From Beroe forskalii (Eukaryota > Ctenophora > Nuda > Beroida > Beroidae), in assembly GCA_011033025.1 (NCBI GenBank), contig WFMF01000092.1, forward strand, positions 450,977 through 514,976: a stretch of DNA of 64,000 nt. The letters run 5' to 3'. The notes under the pieces were generated by a model. It saw only the letters and a list, made by a program, of their open reading frames with translations, made no database searches and was not told where the DNA came from. A program made the position numbers and the translations under genes. Shown here piece by piece: positions 13,424-50,504 of this stretch (its first letter is position 1; every line of letters begins with the position of its first letter).

Positions 13424-16400
13424 CCTAAGAAGCAAGACGGAGACTACTTGAGAGCATTCTACGATATCATCCTCCCCCTGGCCATTGAGTACCAGCCTCA
13501 GATAACGTTCATAAGTGCAGGATTCGACTCGGGTCTCGGAGACCCACTGGTTAGTTAGAATTGTAATCGAATTTTATTCTTTCTTTAATCTCCAAAACGA
13601 GATCAACATAATATGTTGATATTCGACTGTGAGAATTGAATTACATTTTTCCGTTGGTTCTGCACACACCGTTTTGCAATATGCAAAAATATTATGCTAT
13701 TTTTGTTTAATCTTTGATATCCTTCTTGTGAGTTACAAAATGATTTGTCTGACTAAAATTATGACATGTACATGATTATTTAAGTAGCTCTTTTCTTATC
13801 TGTGCTGTTGTCTGTAGGTTCCCTAAATTTTTGATTCTTTGTTTTCGCAGCATTGATATGATGCGGGGGGGGATCAGGTACTAAGTGCTTGACACAGGGT
13901 GTACTAACCGAGTTTTTCTGAAAATTTTGAATCATGACCACCCACCCCAACACTTAGTACATTATACTAACTGCATTTGACCATGAAAAAAATGGGACCA
14001 CCCCTTAATTGCATTAAATCAGTATCTGAGACTCAATCTTTTTGGAAGAAATAAAATAAAGCAACTTATTGCACTATAAAATTCCATTGCTTGTGTATTC
14101 TCCATCATAAAAATATCAAAATCTGTTTTAAAACCTAAAAATGCAATTTCCATTGCAAAAATGTCCATTTTCAAAAAATATGTTTGAAAATAGATACCTG
14201 CATGAAATAAAAACCTTTCGAAAATAATACCTACTGCTAGTCTGTGATTGATGATATATGAAAATATTAAAAAGTCTTAAAAACTAGTCACATCAGTGTA
14301 TCATGAATAGATACATTATCATATTAATAGTATAAAATTTAATCTATGATAATATTGCATAATTGGCATTAAAGATTCAGGAAGATGTCAAAAACTTTTT
14401 CTCATTTTCCTCAATGAGTAAGGTTGAACTAATTTCAACGTCAGGATGTAAATTCTCATAGTGATGTGGGATGTTATATTTCCAAACATCAGCCTGACAT
14501 ACATGACACTTCACTACATGATTAGTACACCGATTTCTAGTAGAGTAAGTTGTTGGCGATTTACCCCATTTGACAAAGTATGGGCAGTTACTTTGTAATT
14601 TGAAAAAGACCTTAGTGCCCCTCTTAGAACTCTTGTTGAGACTGAATGAACATGTTGTCTCCCCACAAAATCCGCAACTGTTAGTTAAGTCCTGTTTCAG
14701 GATATGGACGCCTACATGCTGTCTCATATGTTCTAGTTTCACCTTGAGTGGACACAGTTTACATGCTATTTTAGCTCCATGTGATAGATCAGATGAGGCT
14801 TCTGAAAGAGTAAGCCCCATGTCCATGATGTAGCTCTTGTCAAAAGTAAACACTGTGCTACCCTCTGGTGGATTCAAGTTCAATTCTGGTTTTATTGGTG
14901 CAACTTCAGAACCTAGCACCTTCTCCACTGAGCCTTTGTGTTTACTATTCCAATTTAGCTTACCAGGAACAAGTTCGACGAGATCCAGTTCTTGAATAGT
15001 GAGCAAAAGAGTTGGACAATGTTGCTGATTTACATTGTAACTTTTAGCTGCTTTTCCTGCAATAATTATACCTCGTATTGCTGCAACAAAACACCTGTTC
15101 TGCTTCTTCATCAAAACCGAATCCCCAATCCTGATATCCTCTTCAATTTGATCAGCATCAGAGGATGTAGTACCTGCTGTTTTTAAATTGTGAATATAAT
15201 GTAACAATGGACTCAATATAATGCTAATATGATGCCATGATTAACCAAATTATTTAGTTTTTAACCATATATATTCTGGCCCAGTCTCTAATAACTTTGA
15301 CTTTGAGTTTTTGACTTTCATATTTGAGATAAATCAGGCATTCAATTAATAGTTACCATCGTTTCTAGTCATTCCCCTTATCCGTTTGAGTCGATCTTTA
15401 GATAGGGATTCACTTGAAAACATCTCCTTGATGATAGTTGCTTTGTAAACAACAGTATCATCAATATTGATTGTGTTTGAGGCAAGCAACTGCTCCCTAA
15501 GATCACTGCTCTCGTCTTCCTGGGATTTTCTCATTAGAATCAAATGTGACATGGGTAAATTATGATAATAGGTAAAGCTATTTAAAGCTATATGTAAACA
15601 TATAACCACCCTAACTACTGCTCCATTCATTGCTCAAAATTGAAATATGTGAAAGATGTGTAGTTTATCATTGATTCTACATCTGGAATAGAACATACTT
15701 GTATGTCATGATTCACGCCATCACTCGATTCATTGCTCAAGGAGTAAACTCGGTCCTCATTCAAGCCTATCAGCTTCCCCTTTGGTTTCTTGAGCGTTGT
15801 GAGATGACCATCACATGTTTCTTGAACTTCCTGTCCTAGATGCTTTAGAACATCAGCAAGTCCCTGCAATCTGCCAGTGTTCCAATGAAGAGAAACATCT
15901 TCATCTCCTATTGTGAGTTTATCAGCATTCCAAGATGCTGGGTTGGACTTATCAAGTGATATCCTTCCTGAAACTCTACTTGATTGTGACCATTCTGGAT
16001 GGTCAACAGTGAGAATTTTGTCACACTGTTCTATTGAAGAAAATGCATTAATCAATGATGCTGAATCATCGCTTTGGTTGGCTAAAACCATCCTACCTCG
16101 ACCAAAAGTTCTTTCTAGTGGGTCAGTCCCATTTTGGACCATATATAAAGGTTCTGTTGGGAAGAAAACTGCCGCTTTTGCTGAGCAAAAAATGGCATCT
16201 ATAAATGTACTCTGTATATCGTGGTACAGCTGATTGTTTATACATGAAGTATTATGCTGATACATCCCCAAAAGTATGTATGCTGCTCGGGAAAATGTGC
16301 TGATCTGCTTCATAATAGTGGTGTCCCTGTAGACATAGAAGTGTAACAAGCCTTCCATCACCAATGCATACAGTTTAAGCTCTGAAATGGCCTTTTGCAG

Positions 16401-19400
16401 ACGAAATGGAATTTTGCTATAGTTACCCTCATCTAGCATTACTTCAATGAATGTGAGAAAGAATTTTGAAGCTGCAGGCACATTCTGTTTGTCTCTAGGG
16501 TATACTAACCTCTCAAGGGAAAGAGGCTCCAAACCTGATAAACCTAAAAGGTCAATGAGGTCTCTTCTTACAATAGGAACTCCAGCCAGCTGCACCGACT
16601 CGTTAGTAAAGCTTTGCCATAATCTTTTAACTAGATGCTTAGGATCAAAGCTGACGGTCTCCTGCCCTTTGCCACACAACTGGTCAACCATGGGAAGCTT
16701 GGATATGATCTTACCAACATCAGTTGTCAAATCTAGTTGATGAGAAAGAAGACTTGCCAAAGAAATCCTGCGAATACCATCTCCATCTGTGCAATAGTTC
16801 ATCACATTCTTTCCAGTATGAAGATGAACAAACTTCCTTACCGATTCGAATATATCATTGGTTCCATGAAAATCATCTTTACTGCAAGTAGGCCAAGAAA
16901 TGGCTACTTTCACAACATCTGTGGTATTGAGCTTATTCAACCCAACAACAAGACTATCCTTAGGGACATGTATAACTCCCTCTTTCACTGCACTCTGAAT
17001 TAGCTGTGCTTCTTCAAAACTGTCAAATTTTAAAAGCTCTTTATGTTCTTTTCCATGTTTGTAACAAACTCCCTGCAATGAGTCTGAAGGTTCATCGAAT
17101 TTCAACCTTGGAGAAACATAGGTCTCATCAACCTTCACGGACACTGCATAAGAGTTGATGAAATCCACAGGAACATTACTATTCAAGCAGTCAGTGACAG
17201 ACCAAGTAATTGGTGAGCGAAATGGTTTCATTGTTCTTGCCAGTCTATATGCAGTTGATGATGATGGTAAAAGATTCGCTTTATAGCAAATATCAAGAAG
17301 GCGGGGACCACCAATTTTGAGGACCACAACAGCCAGGTCCTTGTCCTCTTGTGAGGGTCTCGCACGATAAATGCCATCTATGGCATCTTTAACTTTTTCC
17401 ACAATATAGTTCAGGCTTCTATGACCCTTCAAAGCCACAGTCAGTAGTTCTTTCAGTCTTGGAACATTGTTACTTGCCATTAAAGATACAAGTCTTTCAT
17501 GAAGACTTAAACATTTACCAAGTCTAGCTATCTTCCTTTGACAATTCAACTCTTCCAACTTAAGCTTATTTTTGAACGTTTCATGGGCTTGTATTCGTCC
17601 ACTTAACTGAGTAAAATTCAAATATTTACAACCATGGAACGTTAAATCAGCAGCCATGCTCGAAGCCCTCGTTATTATTTCATTTAAAGCTTTATTATAA
17701 CGAAGGTTATCACAGCATTTGTTTACTGGATTAACATCATGAACATATTCATCTCGTATGATAAAGTTACTATTAAAGCAAGTCTCATGGTGTATTTTGT
17801 CATGATTTATTCTTATATGTGACCATTTCGCAGAAACATCGTCGAGAAGTTGAAATGGAAATGTTTTGTGAATTGATTGGACATTCCACGTTAAACCACT
17901 ACAGTATTTCTCATGCGCTTCTGTAGCAATGTCATGAAAAGAAGACGTTGTTCCTTCAGTAGAGCCTAAATTCGTGCTTTCACCAGGTGGCATTACATCA
18001 TGCTGAACATGTTGAGTTACAGAGCTGTCATTAGTTGTTAGACAAGTTACATTCTGAGACTCAGCATAACCAGAACTATCATTAGTTGTTAGTACATTCT
18101 GAGACTCAGCATTACCAGAGCTGTCATTAGTTGTTAGTACATTCTGAGACTCAGCATTACCAGAGCTGTCATTAGTTGTTAGTACATTCTGAGACTCAGC
18201 ATTACCAGAGCTGTCATTAGTTGTTAGTACATTCTGAGACTCGGCATAACCAGAACTATCATTAGTTGTTAGTACATTCTGAGACTCGGCATTACCAGAG
18301 CTATCATTAGTTGTTAGTACATTCTGAGACTCAGCATTACCAGAGCTGTCATTAGTTGTTAGTACATTCTGAGACTCAGCATTACCAGAGCTATCATTAG
18401 TTGTTAGTACATTCTGAGACTCAGCATTACCAGAGCTGTCATTAGTTGTTAGTACATTCTGAGACTCAGCATAACCAGAACTATTTGATTCATCATTGGC
18501 TGGCCGTGGTCTCTGAAAAGAAGATGATTGGCAAATGGGGACTTACATTATGCTGTATGTAACTTGTACACATACTACATTTATACATAAACATGTAAGT
18601 ATAGGTGTATAATTGATAGTGTATATGGTGTATACAATATACACCATATTACATAGTATTTAAATGCGTTATTTCATGGGTTCAGTGCGTGAACATCACA
18701 TTGGAATTACCATGTCACAAGATTAGCATGTATCTATGCTATGTATGACTAAACCTCTATTAACTGACCCACAAATTCAAAAGTTAAGTATCAATTTATT
18801 TTTTCACTTTTATTGATTTCCTGACAAAGCAAATGTGACAACCCTTCCCCCCCCCCTTTACTTCCTCAGTGAAGTGGTACCTGCCGTGGGTCAAAACAAC
18901 TTAATAATTACGGAATATGTGACTTTGATAAGCATTTACCTTTGTCAAAAACTGGGTTATAAGCGTGTTATTGTTCCTACATGTGCTCCTTTGCAGTTGT
19001 TTGCAGGAACGGAGGTGCTTTGTTAGGTTATACTCATTCTTGCAATCACGTTTGCAATGAGAACACTGAAAGCTGTTAGACATACAAACCTGTATAATGT
19101 ATATAGTATCAACTAAGTTTAATGCGTTTAAAAGAATTAATCATGATTTAACAACGCTATTAGGTGGCTTATTAAGGTCGCCATTGACTTAACACAATCA
19201 ACGAAAGGAGGTGTCATGAATTACTTTGGACGATAGAAACTGTTGAAAATGCAATGAGGGGAATGAAACGAGTAACGACATAGTTATACCTTTAAACTAT
19301 AAAAAGTGATGTATAAGCATATACCATATTTCAACATTGAGCAGCAAAAATGCAATGTTTAAAATTTCTAACTTAAAGTTAAGTTCGAATAATTCAAATA

Positions 19401-22400
19401 ACGCATATATTCTATTTTCAATGTGATATGGACCTAACTAAGTATATAATCAATAATATATATCAGCAGCCCAAATCCTGATTCCTTACTTTGTCGAAGT
19501 CTCGGGCTTCGGCTCGTTGCACCTATAACAGTTTACCCTATGAGCGAAATTGTTGCAATCGCAGCAAGAGCAACGCCAGTCACCATCTTTAACCAAGAGA
19601 GATTCGCCCTGATCTTTTGGCTTTCTGCAATTGGTACATCTCAGAATGCTTAGACGAGACATTCGTGTGCCACATGAACACTTCCAAGCCTTAGATGAGC
19701 GTTGTACTTTCGGCATTCTATTATTGCAATATTACGGGATAACAATTTTGAAAACGTATATCTGTCATTTAAATATAAAATAACTTCTACCTCATTAACT
19801 AATTATTTAATTAGGCAATAAATAATCAAACCTGGTTAGAAAATATTAAGTCTCAATGACCAATGGACTACAGACAGATTACTAATTTTGCAATATGGTA
19901 TGCTATACCCTTTGGCAGTTATAGATGATACCAATCACAGAATTTTACGTTTTTAAAAGGGAGATTGGGAGTTCCAATGGATGAAGATTGCTGTACGATA
20001 ACAACAAGAAGAGTAATTAAGGTATACGTTGTCATACCGAACGAAGCAAATGAACGATACAAAGCAAACAAGCAACTAGAAGACTATTGAAAGGCGGACG
20101 TAATTCGAGGTTCCAGAAAAAATAACTTAATGATTCCATGTTAATTCAATAATTGGTAATTCGTACAATGATTCAAGATGGAGTTGTAAACAGGGAGACA
20201 CGTGAATTTTGAATGCCTACAATCCCTGAAAATTAATAGAAACAAATCCTCTTACACCGCTTACACACAATATCAATGTATGGTGAAAGCAATACCGGAT
20301 CACTTCATTGGCATTATCTAATAAAGCAATTAGTGCTTCAATGTGATTAGAGTTTTCTGCACCCATGTGTAAAGCTCAATCAAATTTGCTTGAGTGGAAC
20401 AGTACCACAAATTCCGTGAACACAAATTCAATTCCGAGATAATCAAGTCAGGGTTCGCTCTGCACCTTCTGGTAATAATGTTGCAATCAATGTATAGGCC
20501 TCTTGTTGTGATATAATTAAAACTTCACTGATTTGAAATTAAAGAAATTAAAAACTTCTAGCCTAAATTTTTGAAATTTGTGTATAAATACTATTGAAAC
20601 TGAAATTCTTTTAACATGAAACGTCTGGCTTCTGGGGCTGCTTGGGCCCCCACTTTAGATTGTGAACATTTGATACTCATTTGAAGTACTCTATTGGAAT
20701 TCTATTACAGTATTACACTGGACATGTACCAATACATATTGTAATAGTGATAATTTATATGCAAAGAAAAGTTAGAAATGGCTCTTCTATGATTTTTCGG
20801 TTAATAGTAGCATATTTAGATACCAAAGCACAAGCAGAAATTGCTGTTGAGTCTGACAGACTATACCTCCATATTTGTTCTCATAGGTCCAGAAAGCCAC
20901 TAGCTAGAACCTCTGTTCTTTAGACTTTTAGACAAAAACTTCATTTTCAAGCATTGAACTCGGCTAAATACTTCCAAATCTAAATTTGGAAATTCGTGAA
21001 CCTTTTCGGAAGAAATTTTAGACGAGCCATGAAAATTTTTATAAACCAACTGAAAATATCACAAAATTTTGATACAACTACAGTCTACAGTCAACTACAG
21101 TCTACAGAGAAGGTTTCTGTATAGAAAGTTTCAAGTAAATTCATGCTGGATAGTATGGTATGCTGAATTAAGAAACCGATTAAGAACTTTTTAGGCTCAA
21201 AATCGTCAAAAATAAGAAACTTGTAGCCTGAAGTTTAATAAGTTTCTTATAAAAAAAAAACTAGTGTAATGTGTAACTACTCTTATATGAGATGAGGGGC
21301 CGCTGCAGGCTCCGTAATAATGTTTCAAATACTAAAAATAAGGTACGTATACTAAGTGCTACTTGAAAAATTTCATAGACCTATCATTTAGTACACATTC
21401 TCGTACTAAGTGATACTTTGGGAAATTCTCAAGGATCACTCCAATTTTAGTACAATGATGACTAACTGTATTTCACACTCGGCCGGGACCCACCCACCCA
21501 CAACCCTGTGTCATACTTAGTACCTGATCCCCTGTATGATGATGTTTTCCCCAAATCACTTTAGAATCATGTCCTTGAGCTTGATAAAACAGAGGTTCCC
21601 GGAATAACCAGTGTCACTACGAAGTCCCACTGAAATACGGTAACCTACCTACCAACTCCTTCTGGCCCTGCGAGAATAACGTTTATCCCGTGAACGAGGG
21701 CCCGTCATTGAAACTTACAACCCAACGATACCTCTTCTCCATTCGTTTTTAACGGAACAGGAGTTTAAACTCAATCTTCGTCCACATCGAGATGAAAGCA
21801 AGTAGGAGAATTTGCTGATTTCTCAAGTAATATTCGACAATCTCGTCAGCAAGAACAAAACAAAAACGTTGTGGTCTAGGCTTCTCTGAGTTCGGGGCTT
21901 GAGTGGATTTAGGGCTGCAACAGGGGAGCTTTGGTGGTTTTGATGCTGACTTCTCTGCGGGTTGCCTGGCATTAAATATTTAAATGCGTTATTTCATGGG
22001 TTCAGTGTAGACATCACATTGGAAATTACCATGTCACAAAGATTAGCATGTATCTATGCTATGTATGATTAAACCTGTATTAACTGACCCACAAATTCAA
22101 AAGTTAAGTATCAATTTATTTTTTCACTTTTATTGATTTTCCTGACAAAGCAAATGTGACAACCCTTCCCCCTTTGCTTCCTCAGTGAAGTGGTACCTGC
22201 CGTGGGTCAAAACAACTTAATAATTACGGAATATGTGACTTTGATAAGCATTTACCTTTGTCAAAAACTGGGTTATAAGCGTATTATTGTTCCTACATGT
22301 GCTCCTTTGCAGTTGTTTGCGGAACGGAGGTGCTTTGTTAGGTTATACTCATTCTTGCAATCACGTCGGCAATGAGAACACTGAAAGCTGTTGAACATAC

Positions 22401-25400
22401 AAACCCGTATAATGTATATAGTATCAACTAAGTTTAATGCGTTTAAAGAATTAATCATGATTTAACAACGCTATTGGTGGCTTATTAGGTCGCCATTGAC
22501 TTAACACAATCAACGAAAGGAGGTGTCATGAATTACTTTGGACGATAGAAACTGTTGAAAATGCAATGAGGGAATGAAACGAAGTAACGACATAGTTATA
22601 CCTTTAAACTATAAAAAAGTGATGTATAAGCATATACCATATTTCAACATTGAGCAGCAAAATGCAATATTTAAAATTTCTAACTTAAAGTTAAGTTCGA
22701 ATAATTCAAATAACGCATATATTCTTTTCAATGGATATGGACCTAACTAAATATATAATCAATAATATATATCAACGCCCAAATCCTGATTCCTTACTTT
22801 GTCGAAGTCTCGGGCTTCGGCTCGTTGCACCTATAACAGTTTACCCCTATGAGCGAAATTGTTGCAATCGCAGCAAGAGCAACGCCAGTCACCATCTTTT
22901 AACCAGAGAGATTCGCCCTGATCTTTTGGCTTTCTGCAATTGGTACATCTCAGAATGCTTAGACAGAGACATTCGTGTGCCACATATGAACACTTCAAGC
23001 CTTAGATGAGCGTTGTACTTTCGGCATTCTATTATTTGCAATATTGCAGGATAACAATTTTGAAAACGTATATCTGTCATTTAAATATAAAATAACTACC
23101 TCATTAACTAATTATTTAATTAGGCAATAAATAATCAAACCTGGTTAGAAAATATTAAGTCTCAATGACCAATGGACTACAGACAGATTACTAATTTTGC
23201 AATATGGTATACTATACCTTTGGCAAGTTATAGATGATACAATCACAGAATTTTACGTTTTAAAGGGAGATGGGGAGTTCAATGGATGAAGATTGCTGTA
23301 CGATAACAACAAGAAGAGTAATTAAGGTATACGTTGTCATACCGAACGAAGCAAATGAACGATACAAAGCAAACAAGCAACCAGAAGACTTATTGAAAGA
23401 CGGACGTAATTCGAGGTTCAGAAAAAACAACTTAATGATTCCATGTTAATTCAATAATTGTATTCGTACAATGATTCAAGATGGGTTATAAAACAGGGGA
23501 GACGTGAATTTTTGAATGCCTACAATCCCTGAAAATTAATAGAAACAAATCCTCTTACACCGCTTACACACAATATCAATGTATGGTGAAAAGCAATACC
23601 GGATCACTTCATTGGCATTATCTAATAAAGCAATTAGTGCTTCAATGTGATTAGAGTTTTCTGCACCCATGTGTAAGCTCAATCAAATTTGCTTGAGTGG
23701 AACAGTACCACAAATTCCGTGAACACAAATTCAATTCCGAGATAATCAAGTCAGGGTTCGCTCTGCACCTTCTGGTAATAATGTTGCAATCAATGTATAG
23801 GCCTCTTGTTGTGATATACACTCAGTTTCTTTTATAAGAAACTGTCTATAAGAAACTTAGCCCAGGATTCTCAAAAATTTAAGAAACTTAGCCTAGAATT
23901 TCGGAAAAATTAAGAAACTTCACTGATTTGAAATTAAGAAATTAAGAAACTTCTAGCCTAGAATTTTGAAATTTGTGTATAAAATACTATTGAAACTGAA
24001 ATTCTTTTAACATGAAACGTCTGGCTTCTGGGGGCTGCGCCCCCAGACCCCCACTTTTAGATTGTGAACATTTTGATACTCATTTGAAGTACTCCTATTG
24101 GAATTCTATTACAGTATTACACTGGACATGTGTAATACATGTGTAATAGTGATAATTTATATGCAAAAGAAAGAAAATGGCTCTTCTATGATTTTCGGTT
24201 AATAGTAGCATGTTAGATACCAAAGCACAAGCAGAAATTGCTGTTGGTCTGACGACTATACCTCATATTTGTTCTCATAGGTCCAGAAAGCCACTAGCTA
24301 GAACCTCTGTTCTTTAGACTTTTAGACAAAAACTTCATTTTCAAGCATTGAACTCGGCTAAATACTTCCAAATCTAAATTTGGAAATTCGTGAACCTTTT
24401 CGGAAGAAATTTTTAGACGAGCCATGAAGATTTTTTATAAACCAGCTGAAAATATCTAAAAAATTTTGATACAACTACAGTCACAGTCAACTACAGTCTA
24501 CAGAGAAGGTTTCTGTATAGAAAGTTTCACAAATGAAATTCATGCTGGATAGTATGGTATGCTGAATTGAAACCGATTAAGAAACTTTTGGCTCAAAATC
24601 GTCAAAAAGAAAATTTCAAGGACCACCCAACTTAGTACACGATGACTAACTGTATTTCACACTCGGCCGGGACCCACCCACCCACACCCTGTGTCATGCA
24701 CTTAGTACCTGATCCCCCCCCGTATGATGATGTTTTCCCAAATCACTTTAGAATCATGTCCCTTGAGCTTGATAAAACAGAGGTTCCCGGAATAACCAGT
24801 GTCCACTACAGAAGTCCCACTGAAATACGCGGTAACTTACCGTACCAACTCCTTCTGGCCCTGTGCGAGAATAACCGGTTTGATCCAGTGAACGAGAGGC
24901 CTGTCATTGAAGCTTACATCAACTCCAACGATACCTACTTCTCTACCATCTACGTTTTTAACGGAACAGGAGAATTAATCTCAATCTTCGTCCACATCGA
25001 GATGAAAGCAAGTAAGGAGGAAGTTGCTGAATTTCTCAAAGTAATATTCCGACCAGATCTCGTCAGCAAGAACAAAACAAGAAACGTTGTGGTCCTGGGC
25101 TTCCAGTCTGAGTTCCGGGAGTCCTTGGTGAGTGGATTTAGGGCTGCAACAGAGGGGAGCTTTGGTGGTTTTGATGCCTACGACTTCTGGCTGCCTCCAG
25201 AGAGATTGGTCACTGAGACATCTCTTCCCACTGAGTACAGGTGCAGGAATTTGGAGAAGCAACACGCTCCCCACATAGCTATCAAATGGGATGAAGATGT
25301 GGGCAATGCGGTGTCGTATCAGGGAGGAGCTGAGGACATTGTGTTGAGAAACATCCTATTCCGACCTAGTGCTGGGGTCTTCTATAAAGAGGAAGAAACT

Positions 25401-50104: not shown

Positions 50105-50470
50105 GGGGCTATCCATAAAGGACATCAGCTAAAAAGGGGGAGGGGGAGTCTGGCCAATGGAAATTTTTGCATATGTTGGAGGAAGGGGGGTGTTTGGCCA
50201 AATGCAGACATCCACATTTATGAAAATTTTGGTTGATTTGACTACTTTTTCACTGGGAAATAGTCGATTTTTTAGAATTTTGACCTAGATTTTCAACATT
50301 GAGTCAAATGATAAAGTTGATTTTGTCACCATATTCGAGAAAAAGGGCATGAAAGTGTCGACAGTATAGATTTTCAATGAAAATGTGGATTTCCAGAGGT
50401 GGGGGGGGGGGTATTTCAGGTTGTGGATGTTTGTAGACAAGTGGGGAGGGAGGAGTCCAAAAAAGCCAAA
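50105..50470. mobile_element. MITE-like fragment beginning ggggctatccataaagg
   Basis: The left end matches the family at 3886 and 33029, followed by the same G-run and 'tggccaaatgcagac' blocks. No inverted right end could be found. 49591-50104 before it holds nothing recognisable. Confidence 0.5.
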
Positions 50471-50504
50471 ATTGGCAATGTTGTACCACAGGAACATGAT
50501 GAAA

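Follow-up and report, generated by a model that had tools for sequence, protein, structure and literature searches.

A 64,000-nucleotide stretch of the genome of the ctenophore Beroe forskalii (contig WFMF01000092.1, positions 450,977 to 514,976; this whole stretch is called the window hereafter) very probably contains a P-superfamily cut-and-paste transposon that has been active recently and is probably autonomous. Its transposase has RanBP2-type and C2HC fingers at the N-terminus, a Cys/His-rich domain at the C-terminus, and no THAP domain. An intact reading frame, inverted ends, 7-bp target duplications, a catalytic signature and nonautonomous copies can all be read in the genomic sequence. 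The original prediction had joined five minus-strand exons into one transposase frame, and this joining held: the frame is intact over 4,134 nt (1,377 amino acids and a stop), the phases are compatible, and a check of the splice sites in the window found all four introns to be GT..AG. As limits of the element, however, its coordinates (14377..19716) proved too narrow, since the true element reaches 13864 and 24722. Element and gene are organised as follows:

13864..24722, minus strand: whole element as assembled, 10,859 bp, delimited by inverted ends and target duplication
13864..13902, no strand: 39-bp terminal inverted repeat, 3′ end, starting with CGGGGGGGGATCAGGTACTAAGTGC, shared with nonautonomous copies
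24684..24722, no strand: 39-bp terminal inverted repeat, 5′ end, matching the other end
13857..13863, no strand: 7-bp target site duplication TATGATG
24723..24729, no strand: 7-bp target site duplication TATGATG
19490..19716, minus strand: exon 1, RanBP2-type finger pair (frame joining, finger patterns, PDB profile)
18940..19072, minus strand: exon 2, C2HC finger (19000-19071) and basic tail (Pfam, ligand spacing)
15699..18512, minus strand: exon 3, repeat tract and P-type catalytic core (frame, motifs)
15357..15519, minus strand: exon 4 (frame joining; homologous exon in the relatives on contigs C914 and C499)
14377..15173, minus strand: exon 5, C-terminal Cys/His-rich domain (14446-14763; invariant ligands)

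A chance origin of this set of exons is unlikely, since four relatives with 40-56% core identity have homologous exons arranged in the same order.

The two 39-bp ends differ by one mismatch. The 216-Mb genome was searched with the end pattern, allowing up to 3 mismatches, and yielded 68 matches (31 forward and 37 reverse), whereas the reversed control gave 0 and 0. Among 30 loci cut out around such matches, ends were paired only when both lay inside the locus; with locus L005 added and duplicate views removed, 15 distinct elements were obtained. An exact 7-bp target duplication was present in 11 of 16 paired elements, i.e. 10 of these 15 plus the window copy; the five without it are L037, L042 (6 of 7 positions), L050, L062 (end poorly resolved) and L063. 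Thirteen nonautonomous elements of 1.47 kb, aligned to the exclusion of L062 and L005, are 97.3-99.9% identical to their own consensus; the stretch common to this consensus and the window element is 113 bp (97% identity) at one end and ∼154 bp (87%) at the other. L005 is a deletion derivative located ∼100 kb away on the same contig: exons 1, 2, 4 and 5 are kept, nearly all of exon 3 is gone, and the main blocks align at 98-99% to the window element (one further block at 88%). It also contains a ∼625-bp insertion (L005:3001-3626). Finally, with a third one on this contig (C1047), three copies with an identical exon 1 are found within ∼220 kb (near 254, 361.6 and 464.8-475.7 kb), an arrangement that local hopping would give. 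Elsewhere in the window, positions 50105-50473 match the interior of the 1.47-kb element at ∼78%, which suggests that another repeat is nested in the latter.

These copies bear on whether the frame might instead be a P-like transposase that the host has domesticated and that is no longer mobile. Its length, its integrity and its four introns would suit such a gene, but the flanking inverted ends and target duplication, the recent deletion derivative with its near identity over the main blocks, and the multicopy nonautonomous family all speak against it. Domestication was set aside on account of the inverted ends and target duplications, and we consider it extremely improbable.

The length of the element as assembled is affected by a repeated block:

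21977..25177, no strand: second copy of 18657-21946 (element 5′ end, exons 1-2 and start of the neighbouring gene), from block comparison

As a result of this block, exons 1 and 2 appear a second time in broken form. Compared to the L005 derivative, the near copy has 4 substitutions and 2 gap runs, and the far copy 27 and 17. Degradation affects exons 1-2 in the far copy and the neighbouring gene in the near one, and both become noisy toward a junction near 21950. Since each copy degrades toward this junction, the block is probably an unmerged assembly overlap, that is, a false duplication; the alternative of a genuine tandem duplication affecting the 5′ half was set aside, as the degradation pattern and the L005 comparison favour the overlap. 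If the block is indeed an assembly error, the real element is likely to be about 7.6 kb long. A neighbouring open frame, the protein of which matches GNAT acetyltransferase models, has its first in-frame ATG at 24756, ∼30 bp past the end of the element.

The motifs DET, TDGDG, FDPKHLVKR and DPLERTFGRGR, on which the prediction of a P-like core had been based, are all present in the order claimed. That the core is P-like is supported by its catalytic signature, a weak profile similarity, and the predicted fold of its insertion domain:

16113..17129, minus strand: catalytic signature D582, D696, D743(2)H, E920, in the order of the P element
16122..16643, minus strand: insertion domain between D743 and E920, its predicted fold matching that of the GTP-binding insertion domain in P transposase
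17235..17330, minus strand: segment KIGGPRLLDICYKANLLPSSSTAYR, resembling P element AGPRAYNHLYKKGFPLPSRTTLYR (low-threshold profile alignment)

The signature residues match D230, D303, D339(2)H and E531 of the P element, order kept, and the DDE + D(2)H signature is retained in the relatives on contigs C914, C311, C185 and C499. When two predicted models, made without P sequences, were used in fold comparisons, the P transposase ranked first and second, and the models indicate a P-type helical insertion domain between beta5 and alpha4.

Several results weigh against this assignment. No Pfam P-element model matches the transposase, and the sole match of the core to Pfam at E up to 10 is a phage protein, at 0.037. 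When the PDB was searched by sequence with exon 3 and with a family profile, up to E 10, the P transposase was missed, and the hhalign probability for P was just 3.9% (1.2% with three rows). Neither AlphaFold model is good (pLDDT 46 and 44), and both leave the RNase H part unresolved: pLDDT in this region is mostly 25-50 in both, the second, made on a trimmed core, being no more confident. Plain Foldseek with the first model gave no match at E ≤ 0.001, and no P transposase among the best 50. Most of the GTP-contacting residues of P also appear to be changed. Among the eight given in the portion of PMC7776569 consulted (D528, K385, K400, V401, S409, F443, D444 and N447), the motif alignment indicates that D528 and V401 are kept, that K400, F443, D444 and N447 are not, and that K385 and S409 are not reliably aligned. 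Pfam PF12017 and PF21787 had 0 matches in the Beroe genome itself; their controls matched nowhere either, and the result carries no weight. We regard it as very unlikely that the core belongs to a different DDE superfamily (e.g. KDZ, Academ or Kolobok/Mutator-like) whose insertion domain merely resembles that of P.

At the N-terminus, the predicted RanBP2 pattern is real. An exon 1 profile built from the window, C311 and C185 copies matched RanBP2-type fingers in the PDB, namely RanBP2 at 5e-16 over its many fingers, ZRANB2/ZNF265 at 8e-5 and FUS at 7e-4. These matches fall on the second finger of a pair: the clear finger occupies residues 47-66, and ahead of it a degenerate one, overlooked in the original prediction, was found at residues 11-30 with a pattern allowing two substitutions. 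Relative to the Pfam RanBP cut-off of 27, the C311 copy is above (28.9), and the C185 (25.1) and window (16.7) copies are below. The absence of a THAP domain was confirmed too, as exons 1 and 2, scanned against Pfam at E up to 10, gave RanBP and C2H2-like models and no THAP. The finger of exon 2, previously described as C2H2, has a Cys as its fourth ligand (C-x2-C-x12-H-x3-C) and is therefore called C2HC here; its best Pfam match is zf-C2H2, under the cut-off (21 versus 25.2). The Cys/His domain of exon 5 had been missed. Its ligands are invariant across five genomic copies, one of them partial; it has no Pfam match above cut-off, and its best PDB E value is no better than 0.03. Of the RanBP2-type fingers with a solved structure, most have RNA or proteins as ligands.

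Beyond the C2HC finger, short motifs are present in the window (18940-18999) and in the C914 and C499 relatives (LITQFLTK, LTDIFKPKR, MMDFFVKK), which we take to be reminiscent of PCNA-binding boxes. Exon-sized copies of the RanBP2 pair, with 37-43% identity, also occur at C1013:338257, C407:12266, C525:549387, C550:111948, C189:106212 and C225:616007. Core searches of these six contigs gave no match, and a 463-aa frame downstream of the C525 pair (L069:2402-3793) had no meaningful Pfam match; the module is perhaps common to other transposon families. Many RanBP2-like fingers are clustered at C743:59-74 kb, C1:1.71-1.74 Mb and C520:138-139 kb, in open frames that reach 692 codons; these are perhaps host multi-finger genes.

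The same genome has four diverged relatives that retain the core. Core identity to the window copy is 56% for C185, 53% for C914, 51% for C499, which has stops in one stretch, and 40% for C311. A closer copy on contig C1002 is decayed, with many stops and traces of exon 1, and was omitted from the relative counts. The RanBP2 pair is present in the window copy, C185 and C311, and was not found by the same scan in C914 and C499. The latter two are closest to one another (61%) and seem to begin just ahead of the C2HC finger. The C2HC exon itself has a clear counterpart in C185 (E 2e-4) and weak ones in C914 (0.046) and C499 (0.62); none was found in C311 by this search. As for the ends, C185 has similar ones with a 7-bp duplication, TTGTATA, C499 has similar ones without duplication, one end of C914 is eroded, and two end scans over 16.9 kb found none for C311. 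A few short peptide patterns confirmed no relative in viral contigs or in prokaryotic genomes. THAP domains do occur elsewhere in the Beroe genome, with 49 matches. Four of these, picked for their long frames (L065, L066, L067 and L068), have a GD[GA]xFDSPG-type core unlike that of the window, and the one scanned with Pfam is Mutator-like; in this genome, THAP sits on other transposase cores.

The original prediction had proposed a separate P-like lineage with swapped DNA-binding fingers. The P-like core, the lack of THAP and the presence of other fingers, partly kept in the relatives, bear this out, while DNA binding by these fingers, and their taking over of the THAP role, stay conjectural. 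It had also been aware of no named family with this layout. A comparison limited to Pfam and open-licence papers gave no match, and many invertebrate transposon families are named in Repbase only. It is thus possible, although we lean against it, that the element belongs to a P-superfamily family already catalogued there by sequence, its fingers undescribed. Two observations count against this possibility: no open-licence paper combines RanBP2 with all five of the transposase terms used, and the P-superfamily papers, in the portions consulted, describe THAP-bearing elements (PMC8230255, PMC4168063, PMC7776569). Among the titles and abstract openings listed by searches of the open-licence literature, a set without subscription papers or Repbase, there was no P-type transposase with RanBP2 fingers.

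The 15-residue repeat tract reported earlier in the transposase is also real, with 9.7 copies of a 45-bp unit:

18048..18484, minus strand: 45-bp (15-residue) repeat tract, each of the 9 full units holding TGTACTAAC

Besides these nine coding repeats, TGTACTAAC is found once at one window end and near both ends of C499, and does not occur in the 52.7 kb that remain of the window once the element and its flank are set aside. Among 8-mers, TGTACTAA, taken with its complement, is the most frequent in the ends, with 9 counts on both strands over four end sequences (the two window ends and the two of the nonautonomous consensus). The longest word common to the repeat unit and both window ends is not TGTACTAAC but TCTGAGACTCA, of 11 bases; sharing of this length was reached by 1.2% of 3,000 random 45-mers of the window, and by 7 of 751 from exon 3. 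As the link between tract and ends was picked after being noticed, it is suggestive only. Besides the window copy, only the decayed copy on C1002 was seen to have the tract, which disfavours a general function for it. We judge it unlikely that the tract is an internal transposase-binding array by which the element senses or represses its own copies, combined with an exchange of GTP-dependent THAP recognition for zinc fingers of the RNA-binding type.

For the P-type transposon proposed here, the zinc fingers of the transposase, together with an HTH-like segment, would recognise the terminal and subterminal words GGTACTAAGTGC and TGTACTAAC. The insertion domain would hold the element ends, and D582, D696 and E920, with metal ions, would cut and rejoin the DNA; insertion at positions 7 bp apart would leave the target duplication, and the 1.47-kb elements would be mobilised in trans. 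Few animal cut-and-paste transposons are as well studied as the P elements, for which guidance by THAP and dependence on GTP are the traits described. A lineage that has kept the P core while losing THAP and altering most GTP contacts would show that the catalytic machinery of P can be parted from both. The lineage would then be a natural swap experiment on how transposases change their DNA-recognition modules, and its young copies, whose ends are nearly identical, make it well suited in practice to testing for activity.

Compared to known systems, the exon 1 fingers share with those of RanBP2, ZRANB2 and FUS the pattern W-x-C-x2-C-x3-N-x6-C-x2-C (PDB matches from 5e-16 to 7e-4), but these are nuclear-pore or RNA-binding proteins, not transposases. 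The Drosophila P element (PDB 6p5a, 6pe2) has the same D, D, D(2)H, E order, its insertion domain ranks first in two fold comparisons, and it likewise has inverted ends and internally deleted derivatives. The window element differs from it by the lack of THAP, by added fingers at both protein ends, by a duplication of 7 bp instead of 8, and by ends that start with CGGGGGGGG. For the canonical P element and THAP9, the portion of PMC7776569 consulted reports a long staggered (17-nt) cleavage and a GTP requirement. THAP9, in human and zebrafish, has the same catalytic signature string (PMC8230255, in part), but differs by its THAP N-terminus and, in zebrafish, by 8-bp duplications (PMC7776569). 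Galileo, a P-superfamily element of Drosophila, differs in having a THAP domain (PMC4168063, in part) and unusually long inverted ends (PMC3688188, in part), and shares with the window element both 7-bp target duplications and the DDE + D(2)H signature (PMC4168063).

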